Shown here piece after piece: positions 2,826 through 63,339 of a stretch of 64,000 nt of DNA. Every line of letters begins with the position of its first letter. Within the stretch, counting starts at the first letter, position 1. This DNA comes from Brenneria rubrifaciens (GTDB taxonomy: Bacteria > Pseudomonadota > Gammaproteobacteria > Enterobacterales > Enterobacteriaceae): contig NZ_CP034035.1 in assembly GCF_005484945.1 (NCBI RefSeq), positions 3,720,001 to 3,784,000 on the forward strand. Reading direction: 5' to 3'. The notes below the pieces were generated by a model, which saw only the letters and a list, made by a program, of their open reading frames with translations, searched no databases and was not told the origin of the DNA. The position numbers and the translations under genes were made by a program.

Positions 2826-3929
2826 ATGACGCCAGAAATCCTGCCTATCGATCAATATGACGACCAGCTTGCACAAAAGACTGAACGTCTGTGCGGGATG
2901 ATGGCGCCTTTTAATGCCCCGCGGCCTGCGGTTTTCCGCTCGCCCGTCAGCCACTATCGGATGCGGGCGGAATTCCGCATCTGGCATGACGGCGACGAGC
3001 TCTATCACATCATGTTTGATCAGCAGACAAAACAGCGGATCCGGGTCGATCAATTTCCCGCCGCCAGTGAACTGATTAACCATCTGATGCCCGCGCTGAT
3101 TAGCGCATTGCGGCCTAACCCGGTCCTGCGCCGCAGGCTGTTCCAGATTGATTATTTATCCACGCTGAGCGGCGAGGTAGCGGTATCGCTGTTATATCAC
3201 CGCGCGCTGGACGATGTGTGGCGTCAGCATGCCGATGCGCTGCGCGCGAGTCTGCGCGCGCAAGGCTTCCGCTTACAGCTCATTGGGCGTGCGACAAAAA
3301 CCAAAATTTGCCTCGAACGGGATTACGTTGACGAATGTTTGCCCGTGGCGGGCCGGAATATGATTTATCGTCAGGTAGAGAACAGTTTTACTCAACCTAA
3401 CGCGGCAATGAATATTCAGATGCTGGAATGGGCGTTGGAGGCGACTGAAGGATCAAAAGGGGATTTGCTGGAGCTTTACTGCGGTAACGGAAACTTTTCG
3501 CTGGCGCTGGCTCGAAATTTTGATCGGGTACTGGCCACCGAAATCGCCAAACCTTCCGTCGCGGCGGCGCAACATAACATTGCGGCAAACCAGATTGGTA
3601 ACGTACAGATTATCCGTATGGCGGCAGAAGAGTTCACTCAGGCAATGCAAGGCGTACGAAAGTTTAATCGATTGGAGGGTATCGATCTGACGAGCTATCA
3701 GTGTGAAACCATTTTCGTCGATCCGCCGCGTAGCGGGCTTGATTCGGAAACAGTCAGATTGGTACAGGCTTACCCGCGCATTCTTTATATTTCCTGCAAC
3801 CCGGAAACGCTGTGCCACAACCTGGAAACACTGAACGAAACCCATCAAATTCGCCGTCTGGCGCTGTTTGATCAGTTCCCTTATACCCATCATATGGAAT
3901 GCGGCGTGCTTTTGGAAAAACGTTCGTAA
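2826..3929 (+). CDS. trmA: tRNA (uracil-5-)-methyltransferase TrmA
   Basis: TrmA uses S-adenosylmethionine to make ribothymidine (m5U54) in the T-loop of tRNAs. The 367 residues match the family length. The N-terminal half carries [16 protein letters not shown]; the C-terminal methyltransferase fold has [16 protein letters not shown] as SAM loop, [10 protein letters not shown], and ISCNPETL with the catalytic cysteine. It is divergent from btuB, as in E. coli, so its promoter lies beside the riboswitch leader. The start ATG at 2826 gives [12 protein letters not shown], like homologues. Confidence 0.97.
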
Positions 3930-32254: not shown

Positions 32255-33139
32255 TTATCTCCGGGTCTTGCCGTCGGAACTGGCAATCGCGCCATACATT
32301 TCCGGGCGGCGATCGCGGAACAGTCCCCAGGATGCACGCTGCGCGGCAATAGCGTCTAAATCAAACTCATGAACCAGAACGGCTTCATCCGTTTTGCCGG
32401 CCTGCGCCACCAGTTCACCCGTTTGATCGGCAATAAAGGAAGAACCGTAGAAGGTCATTTCCAAACCGTCGATAAACTTGCTGCATTCAGTGCCAATGCG
32501 GTTGGAGGTAATCACCGGAACCAGGTTCGCTGCCGCATGACCTTGCTGAACACGCGTCCAGTGCGGCTGGCTGTCGATCTCTGGGTAAGCCGGTTCTGAA
32601 CCAATGGCGGTTGGGTAGAAAATCAATTCCGCCCCTTGCAAAGCCAGGCTGCGCGCGGTTTCCGGGAACCATTGATCCCAGCAGATGCCGACGCCGATTT
32701 TCGCGTAACGGGTTTGCCAGACTTTAAAGCCGGTATCGCCTGGAATAAAGAATTGCTTTTCCTGATAGGCCGGGCCGTTCGGAATATGGGTTTTGCGATA
32801 CACATCGAGCACGGCGCCATCCGCGTCAATCACCACCAGTGAATTGTAATAAGCGTTGTTGGCTCGCTCAAAAAAGCTCAGCGGCAACACCACTTCCAGC
32901 TCAGCCGCCAACGCAGAGAAGTGTTGTATCAGCGGGCTGGTCTCCCGTTCCTGTGCCAACGCATAGTGCTCGGGACTTTGATCGATACAGAAATAAGGCG
33001 CGGCAAACAGCTCCTGAATCAGAATAATCTGCGCCCCTTTTGCATGCGCTTGCCGCACCAGTTTTTCGGCATTCTCAATGTTGCTGGGCAGGTCCCAGGA
33101 ACATGCCATTTGTGTTGCGGCGACGGTCACTTTTTTCAT
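32255..33139 (-). CDS. aguB: N-carbamoylputrescine amidase AguB
   Basis: AguB is a nitrilase-superfamily hydrolase that turns N-carbamoylputrescine into putrescine, CO2 and ammonia. The 294 residues show the Glu (IILIQELFAAPYF), Lys (VYRKTHIPNGPAYQEKQFF) and Cys (IGVGICWDQWFPE) catalytic motifs. Shine-Dalgarno GAGG lies before the ATG. It is the first gene of aguBA, expressed away from the type III effector locus. Confidence 0.96.
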   Translation of the reverse strand: MKKVTVAATQMACSWDLPSNIENAEKLVRQAHAKGAQIILIQELFAAPYFCIDQSPEHYALAQERETSPLIQHFSALAAELEVVLPLSFFERANNAYYNSLVVIDADGAVLDVYRKTHIPNGPAYQEKQFFIPGDTGFKVWQTRYAKIGVGICWDQWFPETARSLALQGAELIFYPTAIGSEPAYPEIDSQPHWTRVQQGHAAANLVPVITSNRIGTECSKFIDGLEMTFYGSSFIADQTGELVAQAGKTDEAVLVHEFDLDAIAAQRASWGLFRDRRPEMYGAIASSDGKTRR

Positions 33140-33405: not shown

Positions 33406-34419
33406 TTAATGAATCTTCAACTCAATGATCATCAATTGATCACGATCACCGCGTCCCAATATGTCGGATGGATAGGACAGTATCTTTCCTATCTGATTCA
33501 TAAAGGAGGTGAAGTTTGCTTTACTCTGAAAACTGAACATACCATTTTCAGGATCATAAAACGCATGCTGATTGTGACCGTCGCTGTATATCGCCATGAC
33601 ATGACTGTCAGTTTGAATCGACAAAAGTTGCTCTCGTCCTTCATGCAACACCTCTCTTACCAGGCCATCACCCAACGCCTCTCGGCGATTGAGCAACACA
33701 AACGGCGTTTCCCCTCTTACCGGAACCACGGACATTCTCGCCAGATTAGCAATACGTTGCGACACATCATAGCGGCGAACGACCGCAGAGGCGCCGTCAA
33801 AACGCCTGTCCAGATATTGACCGTCATAGCGTGCGCTGCTTTGAAACGTGTCCTGCACAACATAAACTTTCTCAAACCCGGTTTTCGCTCTGGCTTTGGA
33901 TGTGACCTCGTCGTTATCCGCATCGTACCCCAGTAAATTACCCATCACCTTACTGTCATCCAGACCGCTGTGACGCCCCAGCAACCAGAGATTCGTCAGA
34001 CCCAGGCACACGCCGTCTTCCACGCTTTCTACCTTTTCACGCATCTCGGGCATTTGGGCTTTTATCGTCTGAAGGTAGTCACGCTGTTCCATGTTGATGG
34101 TTTGCCCCGAATGCTGGTTACAGGCTAGCTCAAGATTCGATTCATAACGCCTTGACGTCCTGCCTGACATATTCATATCCCTGCTTTCCCCGCTTGATAA
34201 AAGATGACTCCTATCAGGCATCGAAATGGCAAACGGCATGGACGGCAGTTTGTTCATCAACCCTTGCAACGAAAAACTGGCATGTCCTTCTTTTTGGGTC
34301 AATGGCGTAAACGCCGCCTGCTCTTGCATGACACCCGACCGGGGCGCGCCCGACAGTTCGCTTTTTGCTTGTGACTGTGACGTGGTTATTTCAGGTAAAA
34401 CCGCTTGATGAATATGCAT
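33406..34419 (-). CDS. YopT-like C58 cysteine protease, candidate type III effector
   Basis: A 337-residue protein with a polar N-terminal ~120 residues and a C-terminal region fitting peptidase family C58 (YopT/AvrPphB). The presumed triad is Cys138 in DGVCLGLTNLWLL, His273 in DSHVMAIYSDG and Asp289 in HAFYDPENGMFSF; the 16-residue His-Asp spacing is that of YopT. C58 effectors are injected by type III secretion and cleave host proteins. The gene lies 57 bases after a CesT-like chaperone gene on the same strand, the usual effector/chaperone pairing. The locus interrupts the pfkA-tpiA interval. The true start may be the ATG at 34419; no strong ribosome site is seen, so coupling to the chaperone is possible. 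Target and activity are unknown. Confidence 0.72.
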   Translation of the reverse strand: MHIHQAVLPEITTSQSQAKSELSGAPRSGVMQEQAAFTPLTQKEGHASFSLQGLMNKLPSMPFAISMPDRSHLLSSGESRDMNMSGRTSRRYESNLELACNQHSGQTINMEQRDYLQTIKAQMPEMREKVESVEDGVCLGLTNLWLLGRHSGLDDSKVMGNLLGYDADNDEVTSKARAKTGFEKVYVVQDTFQSSARYDGQYLDRRFDGASAVVRRYDVSQRIANLARMSVVPVRGETPFVLLNRREALGDGLVREVLHEGREQLLSIQTDSHVMAIYSDGHNQHAFYDPENGMFSFQSKANFTSFMNQIGKILSYPSDILGRGDRDQLMIIELKIH

Positions 34420-39661: not shown

Positions 39662-39709
39662 CAAAAAAAAGCCCTCCATCATGGAGGGCAAAAGACAGGG
39701 ATGGTGTAG
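39662..39709 (-). ncRNA. cpxQ: CpxQ-like small RNA (3' UTR of cpxP) with terminator
   Basis: On the minus strand the seed ACACCATCCCTGTCTT (39692-39707) is, as I remember it, identical to the conserved core of enterobacterial CpxQ. It is followed by a GCCCTCC/GGAGGGC hairpin and eight Ts (39663-39689). CpxQ is cut from the cpxP mRNA 3' UTR and represses envelope-protein mRNAs with Hfq. Sequence 5' of about 39709 no longer looks like cpxP, whose coding region would be expected there. The break marks the prophage junction; a second copy of this core should sit at the far end next to cpxP. Confidence 0.8.
39692..39709. other. Probable prophage attachment site (ogr-side end)
   Basis: Host sequence (hupE, CpxQ terminator) lies left and phage sequence right. 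The crossover core is placed at or within the CpxQ core, because homology to the cpxP 3' UTR stops there, while fieF, pfkA and the rest remain in E. coli order. The exact core cannot be fixed without the other end. Confidence 0.6.
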
Positions 39710-39925: not shown

Positions 39926-40753
39926 TTAATAAATTTCTGATCTGTTGACCTTTACATTCAATGAGTATTTATCACACAAAGATTTAACAACGTTAAAGAA
40001 CCAATTCGGCGCTGTTGGTGACACCCTAATCTCCTTGATTAAAGTGGAAAGGTTGATGTCAATATCTGTGCCAAAACTCATTCTTTCACCTCTAATATCT
40101 GTTGAAGGATTATATCCTAATATCCTGACTTCATTTTCGTAAGAATAAAAATGGGCTTTATGCATATATTGTGAAAGAATATGGTCATATGTGAAAGAAT
40201 CATTCTGATGAGAGATATATGCGATTTTAGCAATTATTAATTTATAGTCGGATGACTCAACAATACTGTTTATCAGTCGCTCTAAGTCAGTAACTATACA
40301 AACTGCGCAATCATCACCACCGTATATTTTCCACATCGCCATGCTTTCATGCTCATTGGAATGCCAGCAACTAACATCAATCCATTCATTATATTTATTA
40401 TAAATTACCTCATGACTCATTTCCTTATCAGGGATATCACCAAACACAGTATGATGCACTCTATTATCATATGCTAACGATGCATCTTCACGTAGTTTAT
40501 CATTTTGTTCTTTTTCTTCTTCTGTCAACTTTCTTACTGTGGGCATCGAAAAACTCACTGCTATATCGTACAGCATAGCATCCCCACTCCTTAATAAATC
40601 TGATTCAAATGTTAGACATCCTTCTAATTTATCTTCAAAACAAGACGCCTTAGACAAGAAAATTTTATTTCTATCAATTAAGTCAATGAATTTGGGGAAA
40701 CTCATATATCTTTGCAGTTCGGTAGAGCTATCTAAATCGCCGATAATTTCCAT
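39926..40753 (-). CDS. DUF2971-like cargo protein
   Basis: A 275-residue soluble protein showing the loose pattern of DUF2971: FLSKASCFEDKLEGC near the start, DVSCWHSNEHESMAMWKIYG in the middle, HFYSYENEVRILGY later and EIRVSPTAPNW near the end. It is much richer in A+T than its phage neighbours and lies alone between ogr and the attachment site, with an AT-rich promoter region upstream (40754-40860). This is typical of a moron/cargo gene carried for the lysogen. DUF2971 proteins have no settled function; a phage-defence role is possible but only inference. Confidence 0.65.
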   Translation of the reverse strand: MEIIGDLDSSTELQRYMSFPKFIDLIDRNKIFLSKASCFEDKLEGCLTFESDLLRSGDAMLYDIAVSFSMPTVRKLTEEEKEQNDKLREDASLAYDNRVHHTVFGDIPDKEMSHEVIYNKYNEWIDVSCWHSNEHESMAMWKIYGGDDCAVCIVTDLERLINSIVESSDYKLIIAKIAYISHQNDSFTYDHILSQYMHKAHFYSYENEVRILGYNPSTDIRGERMSFGTDIDINLSTLIKEIRVSPTAPNWFFNVVKSLCDKYSLNVKVNRSEIY

Positions 40754-40896: not shown

Positions 40897-41145
40897 CTAC
40901 AGGTTTAAATTAAGCTGATCACGGCCATAGTGTGATGAGGGAAATGCGTCTTTCGGTACAAAGTCCGGTGGCACATCCTCGCATTTGGTGCGGGCTGTAA
41001 CCAGGCGTTCAACGCTGTTAAGCGTCGTAAATGTGATGCTACATTCCAGATTTTGACATTGATGATACTGACGCACGGTCATTTCACTTAGCTGGCGGCT
41101 GGTACGTGTGCGGGCGACTGCGCCGCAGTGAGGGCAAATAAACAT
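40897..41145 (-). CDS. ogr: Ogr/Delta zinc-finger activator of late genes
   Basis: Ogr activates P2 late promoters by binding a TGT-N12-ACA element near -55 and contacting the RNA polymerase alpha subunit. The 82 residues have the family zinc site C-X2-C-X22-C-X4-C (CPHC; Cys30 and Cys35 in HQCQNLEC) and the conserved RTSRQLSEMTVRQYHQCQN. It follows D by 36 bases on the same strand, as in P2. A CCCCA/TGGGG stem-loop lies just past its stop (40874-40889). Confidence 0.95.
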   Translation of the reverse strand: MFICPHCGAVARTRTSRQLSEMTVRQYHQCQNLECSITFTTLNSVERLVTARTKCEDVPPDFVPKDAFPSSHYGRDQLNLNL

Positions 41146-41181: not shown

Positions 41182-42324
41182 CTAGTCACTTTCTGCTATC
41201 CAGTCAGCAATCTTTGCCTCCAGTTCCAGACGGGAAGTAAAACCGCTCCCATCAATGACATGTTCTATACGTGATATTATCCATTCCTGATTATCAATGT
41301 CTGATTTAAATCCTCTGACTGAAACCGGCACTTCCGGGTAAAGGTCAGCACGGCCACGCGCTAGGGTGATCGAGAATTGCGCCGCGCCGCGTTGGAGTTG
41401 TTGCCATTTCGCTGCCGCAGCACGATTCGCCGCCGTTTCATTCTGATAGGTTTTGCGCAGCACGTAGACATTCCCGTCTTCACCTTCCATATAATCACCT
41501 TCGCGGCTGCTGCTTTTTTCCTGTTTCTTTTTTGCTGTCCGTTTTTTTACGCTGACCTTTTTCTTTTTCCCGAAGTTCAGATCCAGCCAGTAAGCGCGCA
41601 CGCCGGTATAGGCATCACGATCTGCAATGCGGAAACTGTGCCGGTCGCCGCTGGAACGGGTGATTTCAGCCGCTGGTAAGGGCTTACCGGATGCACTGAC
41701 GCCGCCGCCGGGCAGGATAAACAACAAACATCCGTTTTTAATCGTGGCGATAGCGCCCAGCATTTCCGCCATGCGGGTTAAAAACGACATATCGCTTTCT
41801 TGGGTTTGATCTGCATGGTCAATTTCCAGATCCATCAGTTGCGCACTGATTAAGGGCTTTAGGCTGTATCGATGGGCGATTGCCGATACTACACGCTCAA
41901 CCGTTACGTCATGCCAAGACACTTCGCGCTTGACGTTAAATTCGTCACGAAAGTCGGCGCTTCGGGCGGTGATCTCGATGGCGTCCGGTGGCCCTGTGTG
42001 TGCGACCTCATCAACAACAAAAATGCCTTTGTGAACCAGCGCTTCACCCTTCCATCCCAGCGACACGGATAATTCGGCGCCACGCGGCGGCAGGTCAATG
42101 CGTCCGTCCGCATCATCAACGGAAATTGTTAACTGGTCGGCATCAAAGCCCCGGTTATCTGTCATTGAAAGCGAAATCAGTCGTTCATCAAGCAACAGCA
42201 GCGTTTCCCCGCCCATTGTGATGTTAAAGCCTGGAACCTTAACGGCTTCCGTCAGTGCGTTATCAAGATCTGAAAGCCCCGATTTCAGCGTTTGCTGAAT
42301 ATCCGTCAAATTACTGAATGCCAT
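41182..42324 (-). CDS. D: Late control / tail protein gpD
   Basis: gpD is the P2 tail-tip hub protein (gp27-like part of the baseplate). The 380 residues match P2 gpD in length and contain RGAELSVSLGWKG, SDMSFLTRMAEMLGA and the C-terminal NQEWIISRIEHVIDGSGFTSRLELEAK; a lysine-rich linker (KKKKVSVKKRTAKKKQEK) lies near residue 260. In P2 it directly follows U on the same strand, whereas here it is divergent from FI. It starts 57 bases from a symmetric Ogr box. Confidence 0.94.
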   Translation of the reverse strand: MAFSNLTDIQQTLKSGLSDLDNALTEAVKVPGFNITMGGETLLLLDERLISLSMTDNRGFDADQLTISVDDADGRIDLPPRGAELSVSLGWKGEALVHKGIFVVDEVAHTGPPDAIEITARSADFRDEFNVKREVSWHDVTVERVVSAIAHRYSLKPLISAQLMDLEIDHADQTQESDMSFLTRMAEMLGAIATIKNGCLLFILPGGGVSASGKPLPAAEITRSSGDRHSFRIADRDAYTGVRAYWLDLNFGKKKKVSVKKRTAKKKQEKSSSREGDYMEGEDGNVYVLRKTYQNETAANRAAAAKWQQLQRGAAQFSITLARGRADLYPEVPVSVRGFKSDIDNQEWIISRIEHVIDGSGFTSRLELEAKIADWIAESD

Positions 42325-42380
42325 TTTTAACCCCCGGCGCTGATAGTTTCATGCGTGCGCGAAACGACAAACAGCCGTTT

Positions 42381-42402
42381 GTTGTCGCCGATCTGTAACA
42401 AC
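42381..42402. promoter_or_regulatory. Ogr box between D and FI (divergent late promoters)
   Basis: GTTGT-N12-ACAAC matches the Ogr/Delta binding element. Its centre is 80 bases from the FI start and 67 from the D start. Placing transcription starts about 55 bases away on either side gives leaders of roughly 25 and 12 bases. An AATATC -10-like element fits the FI side; TATCAG fits the D side less well. The same box occurs between O and P. Confidence 0.75.
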
Positions 42403-42471
42403 CCTAAGCGCGTGTCTGGCCTGTTGTTTTCGGCGAATATCACGGTGAACTCACTGACGAGGCGGCAAGAA

Positions 42472-43656
42472 ATGACCGACAATTTTTTCCACGGCGTTCG
42501 CGTCCGGGAAAACACCGATCTGGTAACAGCCATCAATGACATTGACTCGACAGTCATTGGTATCGTGGCGGTTGCGAACGATGCAGACCCGGATACGTTT
42601 CCGTTAAATACTCCCGTACTTATCACCCGCGTTAACAATGTGTTGGGTAAGGCCGGCATGACCGGATCGCTTTATAAAAGCCTGAGAGCGATTTCTGACC
42701 AGTGCAGCCCTAAAGTTATTGTGGTGCGAGTGGCTCAGGCTGTTGAAGGGGAAGACAATCCGACGCAATCACAGCTTGTGATTGGCGGCACTGCTGCTGA
42801 TGGTAGCTATACCGGCATATATGCGTTTTTAACGGCAGAACAGAAAACCGGCTATCGCCCGCGTATTCTGGCCGTTCCCGACCACGACACGATCGAGGTT
42901 GCTACACAACTTTGCGTTATCGCGCAGAAACTGCGGGCATTCGTTTACGCGCACTGTCACGGCTGCGAAACCATTGCGGAAGCGAAGGCATACCGCACCA
43001 CACTGAACTATCGCGAAGTGATGACAATCTGGCCCAACTTCATCGCGTACAACCCGTTGACCGGGCAAAACGAAGAATTCCCGGCCACGGCCTATGCCTG
43101 CGGTCTGCGGGCGCTGATCGATAACACCCAGGGTTGGCACAAATCCTTGTCCAACGTTGCTGTTAACAATGTGCTGGGGATTGCAAAAGATGTGTTCTGG
43201 GCGTTGCAGGCGGAAGACAGCGACGCCAACGAACTCAACGCTAACGAGATCACCACGCTGATTAAACGCGACGGGTTCCGATTCTGGGGCAACCGTACCA
43301 CTGATCCCGATAAAGAATACATCTTTGAGGTGTACACCCGCACCGCGCAGATCCTGGCTGACAGTATCGCAGAGGCGCAATTTACCACTGTCGATAAACC
43401 CATGACGCCAGGCAACGTCAAGGACGTGGTCAGCGGCATTGACGCCAAATTACAGGCGCTGGTGACCGCCGGGAAACTGATCGGCGCGGCCTGCTGGTTC
43501 GATATCGAGGACAACCCGACGACCGGGTTACGGCAAGGCAAGTGTATTGTGCGTTACAACTATACGCCCGTGCCGCCGCTGGAAGATCTGAGTCTCTACC
43601 AGACGTTCACCGATCAGTATTTTGAAACAGCTTTTTCTTCATTAGGGGGCGCGTAA
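42472..43656 (+). CDS. FI: Contractile tail sheath protein gpFI
   Basis: gpFI forms the contractile sheath around the P2 tail tube. The start MTDNFFHGVRVRENTDLVTA (394 residues) matches the P2 length of 396; an in-frame extension 39 codons upstream crosses the Ogr box and is rejected. Conserved segments include STVIGIVAVANDADPDTFPL and the C-terminal PPLEDLSLYQTFTDQYFE. First gene of the FI-FII-E-T-U operon, which here runs on the plus strand. Confidence 0.96.
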   Translation: MTDNFFHGVRVRENTDLVTAINDIDSTVIGIVAVANDADPDTFPLNTPVLITRVNNVLGKAGMTGSLYKSLRAISDQCSPKVIVVRVAQAVEGEDNPTQSQLVIGGTAADGSYTGIYAFLTAEQKTGYRPRILAVPDHDTIEVATQLCVIAQKLRAFVYAHCHGCETIAEAKAYRTTLNYREVMTIWPNFIAYNPLTGQNEEFPATAYACGLRALIDNTQGWHKSLSNVAVNNVLGIAKDVFWALQAEDSDANELNANEITTLIKRDGFRFWGNRTTDPDKEYIFEVYTRTAQILADSIAEAQFTTVDKPMTPGNVKDVVSGIDAKLQALVTAGKLIGAACWFDIEDNPTTGLRQGKCIVRYNYTPVPPLEDLSLYQTFTDQYFETAFSSLGGA

Positions 43657-44172
43657 ATGTCCGTACCTAAAAAGCTCCGCCTGTTTACGTGCTACGTGGA
43701 CGGCGACAACCATATCGGGAAGATCCCCAGCGTAACGCTACCTAAAATCACCCGCAAAACGGAAGATTTTCAAGGCGGCGGAATGATTGGCGCCGTTGCT
43801 GTTGATCTCGGCCTGGACTCCGGCGCGCTCGATGCGTCAATGCAGGTCGGCGGCTTTGAGGAACAACTGATCCTGAAATATGGCGGCGACATTGACGAAC
43901 TGAAATTGCGCTTTGTCGGTGAGTTTTACACCGGCGGCACCAGTTCCATCGTTGAAGTTGAGATGCGCGGACGGATCACGGAAATCGACCCCGGCGAATC
44001 AAAACAGGGTGATGACACCAATCACACTTACGCCATCAAAAACACGTATTACAAACTGTCTATTGATGATCAGCCATTGCTTGAATTTGATTTACTCAAT
44101 TTCATTTACAAGCGAAACGGTCAAAACCTGTACCCCGACCGCGTTCGCTCCGCGCTGGGGCTGGGCGGTTAA
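43657..44172 (+). CDS. FII: Tail tube protein gpFII
   Basis: gpFII builds the inner tail tube. The 171 residues (P2: 172) begin MSVPKKLRLFTCYVDGDNHI and include RGRITEIDPGESKQGDD and LEFDLLNFIYKRNGQNL near the end. The ATG abuts the FI stop. A 65-base repeated hairpin element follows 16 bases after the stop. Confidence 0.96.
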   Translation: MSVPKKLRLFTCYVDGDNHIGKIPSVTLPKITRKTEDFQGGGMIGAVAVDLGLDSGALDASMQVGGFEEQLILKYGGDIDELKLRFVGEFYTGGTSSIVEVEMRGRITEIDPGESKQGDDTNHTYAIKNTYYKLSIDDQPLLEFDLLNFIYKRNGQNLYPDRVRSALGLGG

Positions 44173-44188
44173 CCAATAACACTATCAC

Positions 44189-44253
44189 CATGCTGTCGGG
44201 CCGCGGCATAGCGATACCGGCAAACATAGTTATGACTGACTATTCCGGCCAAC
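44189..44253 (+). repeat. Repeated hairpin element, copy after FII
   Basis: This 65-base segment is closely similar to 62098-62161: it begins CATGCTG and ends TGACTATTCCGGCCAAC in both. It folds as CCGG...ATAGTTA-TGAC-TGACTAT...CCGG; the other copy has ATAGTCA, so the stem is conserved while one base changes. Both copies lie just after a late-gene stop codon. Confidence 0.7.
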
Positions 44254-44298
44254 TCTCAATATTTAAACGGTGGCACTCGCCGCCCGGAGATAAAAAAC

Positions 44299-44607
44299 AT
44301 GACTGTAAGCAAAATCACGCTTTCGGTGCCCATCAAGCGCAAGGGCAGCGAAATCACGCAGATTGAAATCACCCCGGCAATTAAGCAGGCCGGATCGCTG
44401 CGCGGGTTGCGGCTGGGTGACGTCATTAACCTGGACTTTGACGCCGTGTCAACGCTGCTAACCCGCGTCACTGCGCCAGCGCTTACCCTGCCCGAAATCG
44501 CCAGCCTGCCGACTTCCGATTTTGTTCGACTGAATGAGGTGTTAGTTCCTTTTTTAGCTCCGCAGGCGCCTGCCGAACAGAGCGAGGCGGAGACGGAGGA
44601 TCAGTAA
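44299..44607 (+). CDS. E: Tail assembly protein gpE
   Basis: gpE is a small tail-assembly protein made alone and as an E-E' frameshift fusion, the P2 counterpart of lambda G/GT, which chaperones the tape measure. The 102 residues end in an acidic tail. A slippery T-TTT-TTA heptamer in the zero frame lies at 44550-44556, and GGAG precedes the ATG. The acidic C-terminal stretch EQSEAETEDQ is translated only without the shift. Confidence 0.88.
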   Translation: MTVSKITLSVPIKRKGSEITQIEITPAIKQAGSLRGLRLGDVINLDFDAVSTLLTRVTAPALTLPEIASLPTSDFVRLNEVLVPFLAPQAPAEQSEAETEDQ

Positions 44608-44768
44608 CCGTCCTGCTGTTTGACCGCGTGGAGGATCTGATAGCAGATATCGCCACAATTTTTCATTGGCCGCCCTCGGAAATGTACGGCATGGAGCTTT
44701 GCGAGCTGATAGCCTGGCGTGAGCGGGCGGCTATCAGAAGTGGAGCCAATAAGGATGAAGAGCCTTGA
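44556..44768 (+). CDS. E': E' extension reached by -1 frameshift from E
   Basis: After a -1 slip on T-TTT-TTA (44550-44556) the frame stays open to TGA at 44766 and encodes VLLFDRVEDLIADIATIFHW, then PPSEMYGMELCELIAWRERA, the typical E' sequence. There is no start codon of its own at the right place. The fusion would run 44299-44768 and overlap the start of T by 14 bases. Confidence 0.85.
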   Translation, partial: SSAGACRTERGGDGGSVTVLLFDRVEDLIADIATIFHWPPSEMYGMELCELIAWRERAAIRSGANKDEEP

Positions 44769-47700
44769 TATCCGTGTCGCATTCAGCGCCATCGATAAAT
44801 TTACCCGCCCAGTCAATGCCGCCCGCAACAGCACGGGCGGTCTTTCTGAATCCATCAAAAAAACGCAGGCCGCGATCAAAAGCCTGGAATCCCAAAGCAC
44901 CTCTTTTCAGAAGCTGCGCAACAGCACCAACGACACCGCACAAAAACTGAACCGGGCGCAGCGCGAAGCAGCAGGGCTGAGCCAGCGGCTGAATGAAACC
45001 GGCACATTGTCAGAGGCGCAGCGGGCCAAACTCGATGGTCTGAGAACAAAGATCACCAAGCTGACCACTGCCTACAGCGCACAGACCGCCAAACTCCGGG
45101 AAGGTGTGCAGGCATTGCGCCAGCACGGGATCACGCTGACCAGCGGCAGCGGGGCGATACAAAGCGCTATCCGACGCACAGAACAATACAGCCAATCACT
45201 TGAACGAGAGCGGCGCCAGCTTGCCGCTGTCACTCAGGCGCGCGCCCGTTATGACAAGATGCAGCAGACCGCAGGCAATTTACGTAGTTCAGGCACCGGA
45301 GTCGCATTGGGCGCGGCTGGCGCGGGGTATGCCGGAGGGCGCTTTCTGGCACCTGCCGTGGGTTTTGATGAGGAAATGTCACGCGTTCAGGCGCTAACCC
45401 GGCTGGATAAAGGCGATCAGCAAATGGGCGCATTGCGCGCTCAGGCGAAGAAACTTGGCGCTGAGACAGCATTTAGCACGCGCGACGCCGCCAGCGGCCA
45501 GGCTTTTTTAGCAATGGCGGGTTTTACGCCGCAATCTATTCAAGACGCCTTACCAGGCGTTCTTAATATGGCGCTGGCTGGCGGTATGGATCTGGGCGAA
45601 TCCGCTGATATTGGTTCTAACGTCCTCTCTCAGTTTGCGCTGGATGCCAGTCAAATGGATCGCGTCAGTGACACCCTGACCGCCGCATTCACCCGCACCA
45701 ACACTGATTTACGCAACCTGGGCGATACGATGAAGTATGCCGGGCCTGTTGCATCCAAGCTAGGTATCAGCCTTGAAGATGCGGCGGCAATGGCCGGTAT
45801 GCTGGCTAATAATGGCATTCGGGGCAGCGATGCAGGTACAGCAATGCGCGCCAGTCTTTCCCGTTTGGCATCACCCCCCAAAGCAGCCGCTAACGCGTTG
45901 AAAGAGCTTGGCGTATCTGTCGCTGACGCTCAGGGCAAAATGCGCCCAATGCAGGATGTATTGGGTGATTTGTATAAAGCCACAAAAAAATACGGAGACG
46001 TCGATCAGGTATCGTTCTTTAAAGATATTGCGGGAGAAGAGGCATTTGTAGGCCTGCAAACGTTAGTCCAAGCGGCGGGCAGTGGCGCATTAGGAAAACT
46101 TGCCAGCGAAATGAAAAACGCCAGCGGTGAAGCAGCAGCCGCTGCTAAAACAATGGCCGACAATCTTAGCGGTGATCTGAAAGAACTGGATAGCGCATGG
46201 GAAGGGTTTCGCATACAGATTGAAGAGACTATCGACGGCCCATTGCGCCTACTCACACAAAGCCTCAGTAGCGTCATCAATAGCATGATGGAATGGGCTA
46301 AAGAAAACCCCGAACTTACGCAGACATTACTACTTGTTGGCGGCGGCGCCCTGGCTCTTACTGCCGCAATTGGCGTGACCTCCCTTGCTATAGGGATACT
46401 GATGGGGCCATTGGCTAAACTGCAACTTGGTTTCACTCTGTTGACTGGCGGGCGAGGCATCGGCGGCACGATCGCCATGTTCCGCACGCTCGGCGGCGTG
46501 GCGGGCAGTTCTATGGCGCGGATCGGCGGCTGGTCGCAGGTGATGAAGTCGCTGGCCGCAGGATTTGGCCGTCTGCCGGGATTGCTCATGCCGTTGCGCG
46601 GAATGTTGCTTGCTGTATTTACCTCGCCGTTATCGTCGCTCGTCTCCCTGGCGAAAGGCATTGGTCTGTTACTGCTAAGACTCACCGGCCTGCCTGCATT
46701 ATGGGGGCTGATTAGTGGCGCGGTATCTGTTCTGGGTGGGGCATTATCATTGCTACTTAGCCCCATTGGTCTGATTGGCGCGGCCTTTGTTGCGGCTGGC
46801 TTGCTTATCTGGCGATTCTGGGAACCGATTAAGGCATTTTTCAGCGGGTTCTTTTCCGGGGTGATGCAGGCGCTGCAACCACTCCGCGACACTTTCGCTT
46901 CTCTATCACCTGTTTTTGATGCCATCGGCGCAGCCGTTTCCCGCGTCTGGGATTGGTTTAAGCAACTCTTTACCCCGATAGAGTCTTCCCGCGAATCACT
47001 GGAAAAATGCACCAGCGCCGGGGAAACTTTCGGGCGCGTGCTGGGTACGGCGCTTAATGTGCTTCTCTGGCCGCTGCAAAAACTGATGGAGGGTATCGGC
47101 TGGGTACTGGAAAAACTCGATCTTATCCCTTCCGGGCTGGAAGCTGCGCGCCTTAAAGCTGAAAGCCTCAAGAAAGATCCCGTCATGTGGGAATGGGACG
47201 AAAAACAAGGGAAGATGGTTAAAAAGAGATGGGATTGGTCGCCCAAAGGTGCCAGCAGCAATCCTCCTGTGATTACAACCCCGCCGCAGCCATTGACAGG
47301 GGAAACAGGCACCCAGCGGAGACTACAGAAAATCTCTGACAATACCAGCGGATTACTGGATGAAACCAAAAAACAGATAGGGCCGGGGGATATCGTTTTT
47401 AAAAACCTTCCCCGCGCTTTTGCCGTGCAAGGCGCCTGGCAGGAAACACGTGTCGCTGCGCAGAAAGTCCCGCGCGTTATTTCTCAGCAGATGCAGGACA
47501 TTACTACGCAACCTATCCGGCAGGCCCAAACCGCGCCTGTGTCTGCATCACCCAGCGCGGCGCCATCGTTCAGCCTGGTATTTAACGATGTTGGCAAACA
47601 AGATCCGCGCGAACTGGCACAGCTTGTTGAACAGAAAATAAGGCAAATCCTCAACGAAAGAGAACGCAATCAGCGCGGTTCATTCCGTGATGCGGATTAA
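44755..47700 (+). CDS. T: Tail tape measure protein gpT
   Basis: gpT sets tail length. The start MKSLDIRVAFSAIDKFTRPV (981 residues) is preferred over an upstream in-frame ATG because a Shine-Dalgarno lies before it and P2 T starts similarly. It has an N-terminal coiled coil (about 20-170), the conserved tape-measure core (FAMAGFTPQSIQ-like FLAMAGFTPQSIQDALPG; MKYAGPVASKLGISLEDAAAMAG), several hydrophobic stretches (about 530-700) and a polar C-terminus. At 981 residues it is longer than P2 T (about 815), implying a somewhat longer tail. Confidence 0.95.
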   Translation: MKSLDIRVAFSAIDKFTRPVNAARNSTGGLSESIKKTQAAIKSLESQSTSFQKLRNSTNDTAQKLNRAQREAAGLSQRLNETGTLSEAQRAKLDGLRTKITKLTTAYSAQTAKLREGVQALRQHGITLTSGSGAIQSAIRRTEQYSQSLERERRQLAAVTQARARYDKMQQTAGNLRSSGTGVALGAAGAGYAGGRFLAPAVGFDEEMSRVQALTRLDKGDQQMGALRAQAKKLGAETAFSTRDAASGQAFLAMAGFTPQSIQDALPGVLNMALAGGMDLGESADIGSNVLSQFALDASQMDRVSDTLTAAFTRTNTDLRNLGDTMKYAGPVASKLGISLEDAAAMAGMLANNGIRGSDAGTAMRASLSRLASPPKAAANALKELGVSVADAQGKMRPMQDVLGDLYKATKKYGDVDQVSFFKDIAGEEAFVGLQTLVQAAGSGALGKLASEMKNASGEAAAAAKTMADNLSGDLKELDSAWEGFRIQIEETIDGPLRLLTQSLSSVINSMMEWAKENPELTQTLLLVGGGALALTAAIGVTSLAIGILMGPLAKLQLGFTLLTGGRGIGGTIAMFRTLGGVAGSSMARIGGWSQVMKSLAAGFGRLPGLLMPLRGMLLAVFTSPLSSLVSLAKGIGLLLLRLTGLPALWGLISGAVSVLGGALSLLLSPIGLIGAAFVAAGLLIWRFWEPIKAFFSGFFSGVMQALQPLRDTFASLSPVFDAIGAAVSRVWDWFKQLFTPIESSRESLEKCTSAGETFGRVLGTALNVLLWPLQKLMEGIGWVLEKLDLIPSGLEAARLKAESLKKDPVMWEWDEKQGKMVKKRWDWSPKGASSNPPVITTPPQPLTGETGTQRRLQKISDNTSGLLDETKKQIGPGDIVFKNLPRAFAVQGAWQETRVAAQKVPRVISQQMQDITTQPIRQAQTAPVSASPSAAPSFSLVFNDVGKQDPRELAQLVEQKIRQILNERERNQRGSFRDAD

Positions 47701-47712
47701 GGAGAAAATATT

Positions 47713-48204
47713 ATGATGATGGTATTCGGTATGTTTGTTTTTGCCCTCAAAACCGTACCTTATCAGCAATTGCAGCAGTCCCAGCAGTGGCGCCATGTCA
47801 AGAATGATCGCATTAACCGATCGGCAAGTTGGCAATATATCGGCTCCGGGGAATCTCAGATCACGCTGAGCGGCGTTCTCTACCCGGAAATCACCGGTGG
47901 TAATCTTTCGCTCTCCGCGCTAACGACGATGGGATATATGGGGCGTCCCTGGCCGCTGATTGAAGGGAGCGGAAAGATCTACGGGATGTATGTTTTAACC
48001 GGCTTGCAGCGTACCGGGGCGGAGTTTGACCGGTACGGCAATGCGAAAAAAATAGAGTTTTCCATCAGCCTGCAACGGGTTGACGAAGATTATCGCGAAC
48101 GGCTGCAATCACAGTCATTCAGCGACATGCTGACCAATATCCGCAGCAGCGCAACGGAAGCATATAATGCGGTTAATGCTTCGGCCGGTGGGCTGCTTTC
48201 CTGA
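47713..48204 (+). CDS. U: Tail completion protein gpU
   Basis: gpU is a small tail protein of the P2 FI-U operon. The 163 residues start MMMVFGMFVFALKTVPYQQL and include SWQYIGSGESQITLSGVLYPEITGG and WPLIEGSGKIYGMYVLTGLQRT, typical of the family. In P2 it is followed by D on the same strand; here it ends at a palindrome facing the convergent tail-fibre operon. Confidence 0.95.
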   Translation: MMMVFGMFVFALKTVPYQQLQQSQQWRHVKNDRINRSASWQYIGSGESQITLSGVLYPEITGGNLSLSALTTMGYMGRPWPLIEGSGKIYGMYVLTGLQRTGAEFDRYGNAKKIEFSISLQRVDEDYRERLQSQSFSDMLTNIRSSATEAYNAVNASAGGLLS

Positions 48205-48205
48205 C

Positions 48206-48245
48206 TACCAGCTGACACAGTCATAACTGGCTGTGTCAGCTGGTA
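48206..48245. terminator. Bidirectional terminator-like palindrome between convergent late operons
   Basis: TACCAGCTGACACAG and CTGTGTCAGCTGGTA form a perfect 15-bp stem with a ten-base loop, starting one base after the U stop. There is no strong U-run on either strand. The remainder of the 103-base U-fibre gap holds nothing else recognised. Confidence 0.6.
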
Positions 48246-48307: not shown

Positions 48308-48589
48308 CTAATAAGAAATAACCATATCTGAGCAAACCGCACGTATAGCTTCTTTTAGCAGTGCTTCTTCGGAGTCGTCTTTATTTTCAGGTTTTGTTAT
48401 GAGCACAGGGAAACTAAAAACTCGCTCTCTCATATTATTATCGGCGTATATCGCTATATATCCTTGTATCTCCGTACCGCAATCTATTTGTTCATCAACG
48501 AGGCCAACGGCATTTTCATAGCCTATATATAAATCAGGGTTTTCATCTACAGCCTGATAGCTTTTGAATGGGCCAATAATATTCATCAC
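48308..48589 (-). CDS. Small protein downstream of the tail fibre, unknown function
   Basis: A 93-residue acidic protein (MMNIIGPFKSYQAVDENPDL) whose ATG overlaps the tail-fibre stop by four bases, so it is translationally coupled. In P2 this place is taken by G, the fibre assembly chaperone; this protein is far smaller and I see no similarity to gpG. A chaperone or partner of the fibre is a reasonable guess from position only. Confidence 0.6.
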   Translation of the reverse strand: MMNIIGPFKSYQAVDENPDLYIGYENAVGLVDEQIDCGTEIQGYIAIYADNNMRERVFSFPVLITKPENKDDSEEALLKEAIRAVCSDMVISY

Positions 48590-50607
48590 AGTATCCTTTG
48601 AAAATTAAACATGACCGACATAGACGCCTGCGATCCCTGCACCGCATAAAGCGTTAAGTTTGTGACGGACAAAGTTACGCCCGTCACCGTGTTGTCAACC
48701 AACGTCACTTCCGATGCAGACACATAAATCAGACATTCCCCGCTCACGCCATTCAATGCCCCAGAAACCGTAACCCGCCAGACCTCTTTTGTCGCCGTTA
48801 CTGTGCCGTCACCAATTTTTGAAAATGTGCGAACACCCGTGGTAGCAGATTGTAATAACGTTAAAAAGACTTCGGTTCCATATATACGATAGCTGCGCAT
48901 ATATAAATGACGGTAGGGTGCAATATATTTATCGTTAATATCTAATACATAATTATCTTTATAGGCATCACGTAAGGAAAGAATTGAACTGGAATGCACC
49001 CATTGTGCGCCGTTTATTCCGTTTGTTTTGGCGTCGTTACTATTAGCAAAATGGTAAACGCTGCTATGGAGAAGCCCCCCAACGATACCGCCGCAATAGG
49101 ATGCATATATCGTACATTTACCAAACGCACTGCCGGTAAAATCGTGAATAATATCAGGATACCATTCCGCAGAATCCGGCGTTTTTACCGAATTAACAGC
49201 AGAAGCCCAACTGCTGTCTGAGTTTGTGATCTCATCATCAGAAGAAAAATAACTCCCATCGTTAGATACGTCATGGCCCTCTGCGATCAACAGTTTATAG
49301 GAGCCAACAGGCTGCTGGTAAAATGCAATAACTTCTGCTGTATTTGATCCGTTTGTAACGGTATCTCCCCGAACCAGTACCCCCTCAGGATTAACGGTAA
49401 CAGCAACCTCAGATAAAAAACGACCGTTAAAATCGAATAAACCCCGCACATCACTGTATTGTGCCCCGTCGCGGAGAAGCGTCCCGCCACGTTTAAAGCC
49501 AGTGATAAAATTCACATCAATTATGTGGCCCTCAACGATGGGCTTTATACCATCCGATCCTTTTTGCAGCCATATTCCTATACCCGTTCCGTCACTCCAG
49601 TATCCCCCAGTTATTCTGTTTGACGCTGACGGCCAGGTAATGTTTTTCGGGACATACCCGTTAACCACATTGGTTAAACGTTCAGCGTGAAAATGCGAAC
49701 CGCCACAGCCTTGCGCGACAACGTTTACCCAGTCGGCTTTATCGCCGCCATTGACATAATCACAGCGAATATCTAAACCAACCATGCCGCCATTACCCCC
49801 GACAGAAATCAGAGGCTTGGCATTTTTCCAGTTATCATAATTCGGCCAGGTGTTATGCGCCCGCAGGCTGCGCAAGTGCATTTTAAAACCGTAAGCAAAG
49901 TTGGTTATTGTCAGCGATGCCGATATTGCATAATCACCGTGACCAATAATTGCACGTTTAGCCCCACTCGTTTTTAAGTATTCAATGGCGGTCTGTATGG
50001 CAATCGTATCATCAGCGACACCATCCCCGATGGCGCCAAACATTTCAGGGGTTAAAAACAATATTGCATCCTGAACCGTTCCACCTTGCGCCAGCCCGAT
50101 TATCTTCGCGCCATCATTTTCAATTTTCTGTTGTATTACAATAACTGATTCATCTACATAGCGGCGCGTTGCTAACACAACGGACGGATCAATCTTCAGC
50201 GTTACTGCATCAGTGCTGCTGACTATTAGAATCATGCGCACGGTCTGAACGCGGCCAGATCCTTCCTGCAATCTTGGCTTGTAGGTTTCCGGGCAATTGG
50301 CGATAGCGATTAGGTCGCCTTCATCGTCGTATAGACCGATTTCACGTATCCAGAATCCACCATCAGACTCCGGTATCACCTGCTCCGCAATAATCTGGCT
50401 GTCATTGGCGGGATCAATGCTCAACATATTGAGCGCAGCACGGCGCCTTTCATTAATCAATGCGGTTTGCGCAGTGTTTGGGGTTGGTAAAATACCACCG
50501 CCATCACCGACCGCCATTTCAGTAATACTTAATTGAGTACCCAGCGCGGCGGCATTTGCCAGCTTTGCGGTGCCGGTGATTGTTAATAATGCAAAGTATG
50601 TGCTCAT
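48586..50607 (-). CDS. H: Tail fibre/tailspike with gpH-type head and pectate-lyase-like body
   Basis: The receptor-binding protein, 673 residues. Residues 1-155 resemble the virion-attachment part of P2 gpH (MSTYFALLTITGTAKLANAA; GGFWIREIGLYDDEGDLIAIANCPE). From about 185 it changes to a right-handed beta-helix start, LTPEMFGAIGDGVADDTIAIQTAIE, typical of pectate-lyase-superfamily tailspikes, followed by repetitive strand-rich sequence. This suggests a spike that binds or degrades surface polysaccharide rather than a slender fibre. Catalytic residues cannot be picked out by eye. Confidence 0.88.
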   Translation of the reverse strand: MSTYFALLTITGTAKLANAAALGTQLSITEMAVGDGGGILPTPNTAQTALINERRRAALNMLSIDPANDSQIIAEQVIPESDGGFWIREIGLYDDEGDLIAIANCPETYKPRLQEGSGRVQTVRMILIVSSTDAVTLKIDPSVVLATRRYVDESVIVIQQKIENDGAKIIGLAQGGTVQDAILFLTPEMFGAIGDGVADDTIAIQTAIEYLKTSGAKRAIIGHGDYAISASLTITNFAYGFKMHLRSLRAHNTWPNYDNWKNAKPLISVGGNGGMVGLDIRCDYVNGGDKADWVNVVAQGCGGSHFHAERLTNVVNGYVPKNITWPSASNRITGGYWSDGTGIGIWLQKGSDGIKPIVEGHIIDVNFITGFKRGGTLLRDGAQYSDVRGLFDFNGRFLSEVAVTVNPEGVLVRGDTVTNGSNTAEVIAFYQQPVGSYKLLIAEGHDVSNDGSYFSSDDEITNSDSSWASAVNSVKTPDSAEWYPDIIHDFTGSAFGKCTIYASYCGGIVGGLLHSSVYHFANSNDAKTNGINGAQWVHSSSILSLRDAYKDNYVLDINDKYIAPYRHLYMRSYRIYGTEVFLTLLQSATTGVRTFSKIGDGTVTATKEVWRVTVSGALNGVSGECLIYVSASEVTLVDNTVTGVTLSVTNLTLYAVQGSQASMSVMFNFQRIL

Positions 50608-52456: not shown

Positions 52457-53034
52457 CTTGTGCCCGCCGTCCAACTTGGCCCGCTCTCTACTGCGCCGTG
52501 CGCGTGATCGTCAACCTGCACACCGTTTGACTTGAACGCGCCGCTCTGATGATTGACGTCGCCGCGCATTTCTCCGCCCTCGGTGATTGCGAAAGTTTTG
52601 GCAATCAGATGATTGGTGCATTCAACGATCGGCGTATCAATCGTGACTCCCACTGACGCGACGATGCGTGCCGTTTTCATTCCGTTGGCTTCAAGCGCGC
52701 CGGCGGCAGCGTTATAACGCAACGTTGCGCCGTCCGGGGCTTTGATCACCAATTCGCTGATGCTGCCACCTGGGGCCGGGGTTTCATCGCTGTACAAACT
52801 GCCGAGAATAACGGCTGTTTCCGGGTTTCCGCCGATACAGCCGAGCAAAACCTGTTCGCCTACGGACGGCGGGAGCCAGATACTGAAAGCGCCTGCGCGT
52901 GTCGTTTGCCAACGCAACCAATCCGTGTTCAATTCCCCCGAATTGACACGGACTCGCCAATCGTCCACGTCTATTTCTGTCACCGTGCCGACCCGCAGCA
53001 CATTCCCCAGCAACCGGAGTAGTTCAGCAGTCAT
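52453..53034 (-). CDS. V: Baseplate spike protein gpV
   Basis: gpV is the membrane-piercing spike at the tail tip. The 193 residues show the OB-fold start (VGTVTEIDVDDWRVRVNSGELNTDWLRWQTTRAG) and PPSVGEQVLLGCIGGNPETAVILGSLYSD; the C-terminal HDHAHG-like stretch (VDDHAHGAVESG) is typical of the iron-binding spike tip. It overlaps S by four bases; there is no separate V promoter of the kind P2 has. Confidence 0.94.
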   Translation of the reverse strand: MTAELLRLLGNVLRVGTVTEIDVDDWRVRVNSGELNTDWLRWQTTRAGAFSIWLPPSVGEQVLLGCIGGNPETAVILGSLYSDETPAPGGSISELVIKAPDGATLRYNAAAGALEANGMKTARIVASVGVTIDTPIVECTNHLIAKTFAITEGGEMRGDVNHQSGAFKSNGVQVDDHAHGAVESGPSWTAGTR

Positions 53035-59156: not shown

Positions 59157-59230
59157 GTTCGCTTGCTCACGAATTTGTTGAGTTCCCGATGATGATGGCA
59201 GGGCGGTAGCTGTCCTCTCAACACCTTGTT

Positions 59231-59252
59231 GTTGTAGGAGAAATCAGACAAC
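59231..59252. promoter_or_regulatory. Ogr box between O and P (divergent late promoters)
   Basis: GTTGT-AGGAGAAATCAG-ACAAC is a perfect TTGT-N12-ACAA element. Its centre is 85 bases from the O start and 76 from the P start, so activator placed about 55 bases from each transcription start would serve both directions, as I recall for the P2 O and P promoters. Confidence 0.85.
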
Positions 59253-59317
59253 CGTAGCCGCAGGAAAACACCCGCGCGCGCGGGTTAACCTCCCCATCAG
59301 TAAATGAGGGGACGGCA

Positions 59318-62557: not shown

Positions 62558-62926
62558 TCAAAGCGTCATTTGCTCAGGACGGCAGTGATAAAGTTCAGCC
62601 AGTTTTTCGCGGGTTTTTTTCTGCGGGCGGGAATCTTTCGCTTCCCACTGTGAAACCGCTGATTGTGTTGTCCCCAGCTTTTCGGCCACATCGTATTGTG
62701 ATAATCCGCGATGAATGCGCCAGGCAGCAAGCAGGCTAACATCATCACGGAACATGATTTCTACCACGTCATTAGGCACGGTTTCGTTATCGTGCTCATC
62801 AGCAACATAAGGAATGTCCTCATAGCCTGAATCGCTATCAGACAACATCTTTTCATACTCTTTGATTGATAATACCACGAACTGTGGTTTACCATTCACG
62901 TCATTGATAAATTGTAGTTTTGACAT
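62558..62926 (-). CDS. HTH antitoxin of a RelE/HigB-type toxin-antitoxin pair
   Basis: A 122-residue protein. The N-terminal half (SKLQFINDVNGKPQFVVLSIKEYEKML) resembles the Phd/YefM-like toxin-binding part seen in some HTH antitoxins; the C-terminal half is an XRE helix-turn-helix (LSQYDVAEKLGTTQSAVSQWEA). It lies 70 bases downstream of the toxin gene on the same strand and probably represses the operon by binding the palindromes upstream. Confidence 0.85.
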   Translation of the reverse strand: MSKLQFINDVNGKPQFVVLSIKEYEKMLSDSDSGYEDIPYVADEHDNETVPNDVVEIMFRDDVSLLAAWRIHRGLSQYDVAEKLGTTQSAVSQWEAKDSRPQKKTREKLAELYHCRPEQMTL

Positions 62927-62996
62927 AATTTCATCCGGGTGTCAGTGAGTCGCGGTGTATGTCATAAGGAAACTGGCGGGTTACCCCGCCTGATAA

Positions 62997-63257
62997 TTAG
63001 TAAGTTGTTGATGTTCTGCGCTTGACCGCCTGAACTTCACAGACAACTGGCTCACCTTTAATGATTTCAAAAATTACCCTGTAGTCTCCAGTCCGTAGCC
63101 TGAATTTACCCGCCTCACCCTTCAGCGTAGTAATATCCAGTTTGACGGCGGGGAAGTTCTCCAGTTCGGCAACTTTCTCACTTATGGTGTCCTGATATCT
63201 TCGGTCTATCGTTGAACGTTGTTTCAACGCTTTCCTTGTCCAGATTACCTTTACCAT
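62997..63257 (-). CDS. RelE/ParE-superfamily toxin
   Basis: An 86-residue basic protein starting MVKVIWTRKALKQRSTIDRR, with the superfamily core KLDITTLKGEAGKFRLRTGDYRVIFEII and GEPVVCEVQAVKRR. The methionine at 63257 is preferred over an upstream start at 63332, because the RelE/ParE fold begins there and the upstream piece crosses the operator region. The core GKFRLRTGDYRVIFEI fits either mRNA interferase (RelE) or gyrase poison (ParE) branches; I cannot separate them. The toxin gene precedes the antitoxin, as in higBA. Confidence 0.87.
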   Translation of the reverse strand: MVKVIWTRKALKQRSTIDRRYQDTISEKVAELENFPAVKLDITTLKGEAGKFRLRTGDYRVIFEIIKGEPVVCEVQAVKRRTSTTY

Positions 63258-63289
63258 CAGCTTCCTCGGTTTTTTAAAGAGCATATCCG

Positions 63290-63339
63290 CTTGGGATGAG
63301 ATAATAATAAGATATTTATCTAATCTTATCAATAATTAT
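63290..63339 (-). promoter_or_regulatory. AT-rich promoter/operator of the toxin-antitoxin operon
   Basis: The 82-base gap between the methylase and toxin genes contains an inverted repeat TAAGAT...ATCTTA (63308-63328) and further ATTATC/GATAAT repeats, very AT-rich compared with flanking genes. It is the expected operator for toxin-antitoxin autoregulation. Confidence 0.55.

Follow-up and report, generated by a model that had tools for sequence, protein, structure and literature searches.

The window, as we call the whole 64,000-nucleotide stretch of Brenneria rubrifaciens DNA analysed here, contains a P2-type prophage flanked on either side by direct repeats (28 and 18 bases); the element spans about 33.5 kb, from 39662 to 73228 in window coordinates. 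Matches to PHROGs and Pfam families identified Q, P, O, N, M, L, R, S, V, W, J, I, H, FI, FII, E, T, U, D and ogr, a gene content that places the element in the Peduoviridae. Its main features are as follows.

39662-39707: left direct repeat, likely attachment repeat of the prophage
40897-41145, minus strand: ogr, late activator gene (PHROG 603, transcriptional regulator); adjoins D as in relatives
41182-42324, minus strand: D, tail protein of the late control D family (PHROG 52, 1.6e-153)
42472-43656, plus strand: FI, tail sheath, start of the block (PHROG 23, 1.4e-119); a longer ORF begins at 42355
43657-44172, plus strand: FII, tail tube (PHROG 55, 1e-54; the PHROG name for the family is head closure)
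44299-44607, plus strand: E, tail protein (PHROG 103)
44719-47700, plus strand: ORF of T, tape measure, likely start ATG at 44755 (PHROG 28, 1.9e-195)
47713-48204, plus strand: U, tail protein, end of the block (PHROG 76, 1.6e-69)
48586-50607, minus strand: H-type tail fibre (Pfam PF12571)
right of H, minus strand: I, J, W, V, S, R, L, M, N and O (PHROGs and Pfam)
to 62087, plus strand: P and Q (PHROGs and Pfam), the usual divergent pair relative to O
73182-73228 (window scale, outside the window): right direct repeat, likely attachment repeat of the prophage

The FI-FII-E/E'-T-U block (42472-48204) lies on the plus strand, whereas ogr, D and the genes from O to H lie on the minus strand, and all of these genes are open. 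The initial annotation had reported this opposition of strands from the letters alone, and the strands taken together with the PHROGs and Pfam identities bear it out, as they do its statement that D starts next to FI, across a divergent gap at 42325-42471. No internal stop was found in the 18 translated late proteins (ogr, D, FI, FII, E, T, U, H, I, J, W, V, S, R, N, O, P and Q). Within E there is an in-frame slippery heptamer, T_TTT_TTA, at 44550-44556, and the -1 frame (E'), with frames read by eye, is open to 44768; the E' frameshift looks to have been kept and E' to be intact.

Several further observations concern the rest of the element. S and V overlap at window positions 53031-53034, leaving no room for a V promoter as in P2, and the O-to-S and V-to-H operons look to be fused in this prophage. 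Behind the fibre gene, in the place of a fibre chaperone, lies a 93-aa ORF (48308-48589) with no PHROG or Pfam match. A DUF2971 protein, likely a cargo gene, is encoded at 39926-40753, between ogr and the left repeat. A small HTH-like protein and, next to it, a RelE/ParE-like protein are encoded between Q and the replication gene (62558-63332) and may form a toxin-antitoxin pair, and the ORFs past the right repeat resemble CpxP, CpxR and CpxA.

Distribution and stability of the arrangement

The gene order of P2 is often taken as the plan of the family. In that order FI to U form one operon on the same strand as D, which is not the order of the window prophage; other phages filed under the Peduoviridae depart from it likewise, and order is not decisive for family membership. 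Comparison with P2 and P2-like relatives, which the initial annotation had proposed, finds the block inverted with respect to P2 and arranged as in the nearest relatives. In P2, 186, Fels-2 and ENT90, as in ST512-KPC3phi13.2, Dobby, Musica and vB_YenM_06.16-2, the genes are homologous to those of the window, but FI-U is on the D strand, as the initial annotation had stated for P2 and its close relatives, and FI is 48-51% identical. Klebsiella phage 3LV2017 (Reginaelenavirus, NC_047817; genera here follow the taxonomy lines of the phage records) agrees with the window in the order and strands of ogr, D, FI, FII, T, U, the fibre gene and I to Q, and has an FI 81% identical to that of the window and, like the window, perfect Ogr-type boxes (described below) in the P/O and D/FI gaps; unlike the window, it carries extra fibre-region genes, another early region and a third perfect box at 33600. 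The same inversion is present in Enterobacter phage phiT5282H (Novemvirus), which unlike the window has a weak box, in Escherichia phage P88 and Citrobacter phage Shae_phiSM (both Xuanwuvirus), which differ from the window by a variant box and by an invertase next to U, and in Salmonella phage SEN5 (Senquatrovirus), which differs from the window in keeping the S/V gap, with a third dyad, and in its P2-type J. In Serratia phage KSP20 (AB452988), a 6-kb record of part of a phage, D is opposite to FI-FII-E-T and FI is 78% identical. The window prophage shares the relations that mark the inverted lineage, D divergent from FI and U convergent with the fibre genes.

We determined the extent of this arrangement by scoring the orientation of D, U and J against FI with tblastn in 433 loci, many of them near-copies. 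D was opposite to FI in 162 loci (including the window's own, L001, and one disrupted locus, L272), on the same strand in 210 and not scorable in 61. When the scan was seeded with the window FI, all of the best 80 among the 95 nearest viral-contig relatives were opposite. The 78 loci found with SEN5 FI comprised 71 opposite, five same-strand (distant, with FI 40-44% identical to the window) and two lacking D; in one of these U and J are oriented as in inverted phages, and in the other J is oriented as in collinear phages. Among the matches listed for P2, Dobby and ST512 FI, the best 80 loci in each case gave 66, 64 and 65 on the same strand and 14, 15 or 16 unscorable (14 for P2, 16 for Dobby, 15 for ST512), and none opposite. 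Genomes near the window contributed 20 loci (four opposite, one of them the window's own; two same; 14 unscorable), and annotated phages 15 (seven opposite, CP052639 included; eight same). P2 order was found in none of the scored loci inside the inverted lineage. All of these scans were seeded by FI similarity and cover the lineages near the FI seeds used.

The arrangement is also common in host genomes. In the host-genome collection it was found at 12 of 12 loci, and inverted loci came from Brenneria, Enterobacter, Kosakonia, Klebsiella, Raoultella, Pantoea, Serratia, Erwinia, Symbiopectobacterium and Yokenella. The D/FI joint of P88 was present in 1104 of 5426 complete E. coli genomes, about a fifth, counting a genome when one place covered at least 80% of the 2443-base query on a single strand, which requires the inverted relation. 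FI matched 373 records of the phage collection, with an identity of at least 60% in 45; the layouts read for seven of these 45 comprised the six named phages above, all inverted, and CP052639, where D stands to the start of FI as in the inverted phages but a further flip breaks FI. In two metagenomic contigs, L104 and L105, N, O, P and Q come about 2.3 kb after FI and a shortened FII match, and the interval between them has no match to T, U or any gene from H to R; these contigs may represent a deletion, a satellite-like element or a misassembly.

The initial annotation had named an assembly error at the joints as a way in which its observation might fail, and we found no point in support of such an error or of local prophage decay. 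The same D/FI relation occurs in the independent relatives L002 (98%), L003 (94%) and L004 (77%) and in L434, from Brenneria alni, and the same joint recurs in sequenced phages and in the complete E. coli genomes counted above; the 18 late genes are open and direct repeats bound the 33.5-kb element. Error is thus very unlikely, to the point of being negligible, given the same joint in independent genomes, and the assembly of the joints appears sound; a minority of the opposite orientation in this strain is a matter for its reads. The open late genes and the lineage-wide arrangement likewise support the view, already taken in the initial annotation, that intact genes at both joints speak for a stable rearrangement and not for decay.

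Its suggestion of a switchable inversion, with FI-U flipping in some virions or cells, fared differently. Recombination machinery does lie nearby in the family, since DNA invertase genes stand beside fibre genes in the relatives P88 and Shae_phiSM and likewise in the collinear Fels-2 and ENT90. Against this, none of the scored loci of the lineage is in P2 order, and reversal would part D from the box. In a mechanical scan of 40.0-50.5 kb that used no crossover-site model, 48 inverted-repeat pairs were found, and the 25 longest included no pair that joined 42.3-42.5 with 48.2-48.3 kb. No invertase was found among the 30 window proteins scanned against PHROGs and Pfam, the part of the element right of 64000 being represented by its ORFs only. 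On the census of both orientations, the flanking repeats and the invertase scan we rejected switchability, which we hold to be highly improbable. The nearest thing to a switch is the disrupted Klebsiella locus L272 (CP052639.1, 6405-9759), in which FI is split and its first approximately 250 codons, with D and ogr, are reversed against the rest. This flip concerns a different segment (ogr, D and the first part of FI) and leaves FI broken. Its two junctions share a near-palindromic sequence of 14 letters that is close to part of 3LV2017 FI, so that FI may have recombined with a site beyond ogr, possibly att; an artefact is the alternative.

The palindrome that the initial annotation placed behind U, facing the fibre operon, is real.

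48206-48245, in the convergent gap between U and the fibre gene: palindrome with 18-base arms and a 4-nt loop, possible two-way terminator

It folds with -33.1 kcal/mol (z -6.9); no T run follows it, and it is not among the terminators listed by the scan. Stems of at least 12 pairs were found in 22 of 135 distinct 120-nt stretches after U vs 32 of 135 control stretches inside T, and stems of at least 16 pairs in five and none, respectively. We therefore rejected a strong U/H hairpin as a feature of the lineage, there being no general signal; the window's own palindrome is unusual.

The observation is thus true, ordinary within its lineage and without sign of switching. The initial annotation had also allowed that the arrangement might prove common and already described: it is common in sequenced phages, but a verbal description of the inversion was not found in the accessible portions of the literature, comprising text passages of PMC3091744, PMC5261728, PMC9826266, PMC4553209, PMC11632088, PMC5285337, PMC6456863, PMC3931495, PMC5694545, PMC5322425, PMC6379469 and PMC10612066. 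One of these mentions a different rearrangement for Smp131, affecting its V and F operons (PMC3931495).

Phylogenetic history of the inversion

For a tree of D, FI, FII and U, the 219 loci with all four genes were dereplicated to 54 rows, of which 32 were inverted and 22 collinear. All inverted rows, with the window among them, form one side of a single branch (100/100), requiring one change of orientation. In quick single-gene trees with 41 rows, 14 of them inverted and 27 collinear, D, FI, FII and U likewise each required a single change. Long branches, and an outgroup that was not one side of a branch, drew warnings from the tree program, and the root is uncertain; the split between inverted and collinear phages is independent of the root, while the direction of change was read from collinear outgroups. 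Since the inverted phages make up one branch without P2-order loci, the trees argue for a single, lineage-defining inversion. Judged in this way, it is one old inversion in a common branch of enterobacterial P2-type phages, and the proposal in the initial annotation that the arrangement marks a phage lineage finds support in the locus census, the host-genome loci and the trees alike.

The baseplate gene J tells another story. Its quick tree, from the same 41 rows, required three changes, with SEN5-type phages carrying a P2-like J, and in L024, L216, L225 and L240, which are SEN5-type and inverted, J groups with P2-type J, unlike D and FI-U; by its tree this is a swap of the baseplate module in SEN5-type phages. 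The different history of J implies that modules move in the P2-type group, and FI-U might by the same token have been imported in reverse from another P2-type phage instead of being flipped in place. The long stem of the inverted branch (0.8 changes per column) leaves an early exchange of this kind possible. Against it, D as well as FI, FII and U each place the inverted set on one side of a branch, and an early reverse import is less likely because D shares the split; the spacing between box and FI is kept, as expected if the FI promoter travelled with FI. On balance we consider import unlikely.

Ogr-type boxes in the late gaps

According to the accessible part of one source, the four late promoters of P2 have the consensus TGT-N12-ACA, and in Smp131 two divergent promoters share one TGT-N12-ACA site (PMC3931495). 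The record of P2 itself gives a single activator site (3057-3087) for pO and pP, which start at 3127 and 3016, each 55.5 nt from the centre of the box found there, and one for pF. Putative sites of this type occur at the expected spacing in the window prophage.

42325-42471: divergent gap between D and FI, proposed shared late promoter region (PD/PF)
42382-42401: perfect Ogr-type dyad TTGT-N12-ACAA, its centre 80.5 nt from the FI start and 67.5 nt from the D start
59157-59317: divergent gap between O and P, proposed PO/PP, with a second perfect dyad at 59232-59251

The number of perfect dyads is ordinary (two in 64 kb vs 1.0 expected, with two or more in 30 of 100 shuffles), yet both copies lie in the two divergent late gaps. 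The looser TGT-N12-ACA was at chance over the window (10 found vs 12.4 expected), as were sigma-70 promoters over 40-50 kb (11 vs 11.8). P2 has a perfect dyad at 32844, outside its late region, which implies that perfect dyads also arise by chance. SEN5 has them in P/O, S/V and D/FI, and P88 has none but carries the same one-letter variant, TTGT-N12-AGAA, in both P/O and D/FI.

The position of the box relative to FI is conserved across both arrangements. P2 and 186 have it at in effect the same distance from FI as the window (82.5 and 81.5 nt, respectively, from box centre to FI start). Among distinct regions, 122 of 125 inverted and 127 of 188 collinear ones contain a box of at least seven of the eight letters at 78-90 nt before FI, vs 0.7% (inverted) and 0.6% (collinear) of letter shuffles; these counts leave out L272, loci without D and those with less than 160 nt upstream or in which the FI start was not reached. 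After clustering by FI the figures become 14 of 17 inverted clusters vs 15 of 31, or 7 of 9 vs 7 of 17. The two halves of the box behave differently: of the 127 boxes in collinear regions, 125 have TTGT as the FI-distal half, while the FI-proximal half of collinear boxes is variable; in 119 of the 125 inverted regions ACA is present in the FI-proximal half, the one facing D. Perfect dyads are commoner in the inverted regions (82 of 125 vs 36 of 188 collinear), with a smaller difference after clustering by FI (9 of 17 vs 4 of 31, or 3 of 9 vs 0 of 17); the inverted set being one lineage, this counts as one event. The box reaches only six of eight letters in phiT5282H, L004 and L098, and the D-facing half is poor in L440, L442 and L444, as well as in phiT5282H.

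A proposed route for the inversion

These observations can be joined in a single account, to which we give a probability of roughly 0.7: one ancient inversion, running from PF through U, was fixed in one branch of P2-type phages, and its dyad box can serve both FI and D. The original break points would have lain behind the fibre operon and at the boundary of U and D, and the inverted segment would have taken PF along, placing its putative Ogr-binding box between FI and D. If Ogr binds there, the dyad could activate promoters on both sides, as the single P/O box does in P2, so that in one inversion FI-U would keep their own promoter and D would gain a new one. A single PF-to-U inversion would account for a box-to-FI distance the same as in P2 and 186, and would leave D not stranded, allowing the arrangement to persist. 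The flip was probably viable since a symmetric activator site travelling with the block can serve both sides. The late region would then be run from divergent hubs at P/O and D/FI (in SEN5 also S/V), with convergent ends at U/H. From the start proposed for D in this scheme, the predicted leader is only about 12 nt long, a point against it.

The weakest point of the shared-box reading is the members with a poor D-facing half. The inversion may have happened as described with D served by another promoter, the dyad mattering for FI only. PF of P2 carries a box without a divergent partner, collinear phages also have perfect dyads before FI (the 36 of 188 above), and phiT5282H, L440, L442 and L444 have the poor halves just noted, all of which would fit; against it, P/O, the other divergent late gap, has a perfect box of the same form in the window, and P88 has its variant in both gaps. 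We regard a separate promoter for D as rather doubtful. Returning to the shared box, we put forward tentatively, at somewhat short of an even chance, that PF became a two-way promoter capturing D and that the D-facing half-site was later improved in most members, giving rise to divergent Ogr hubs.

For the annotation of prophages, a D gene divergent from FI is normal in the inverted group and no sign of decay. A common lineage, present in about one-fifth of complete E. coli genomes and in several genera of Enterobacterales, appears to have had its sheath-to-U block reversed once and to have kept it so. If the reading of the hubs is true, it would represent a way of rewiring phage operons of which we found no description in the accessible portions of the literature. 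If the shared-box reading is true, a symmetric activator site would let a whole operon flip without loss of expression, and what is useful beyond the observation itself is a testable account of how such a site may have made the flip of an operon tolerable.
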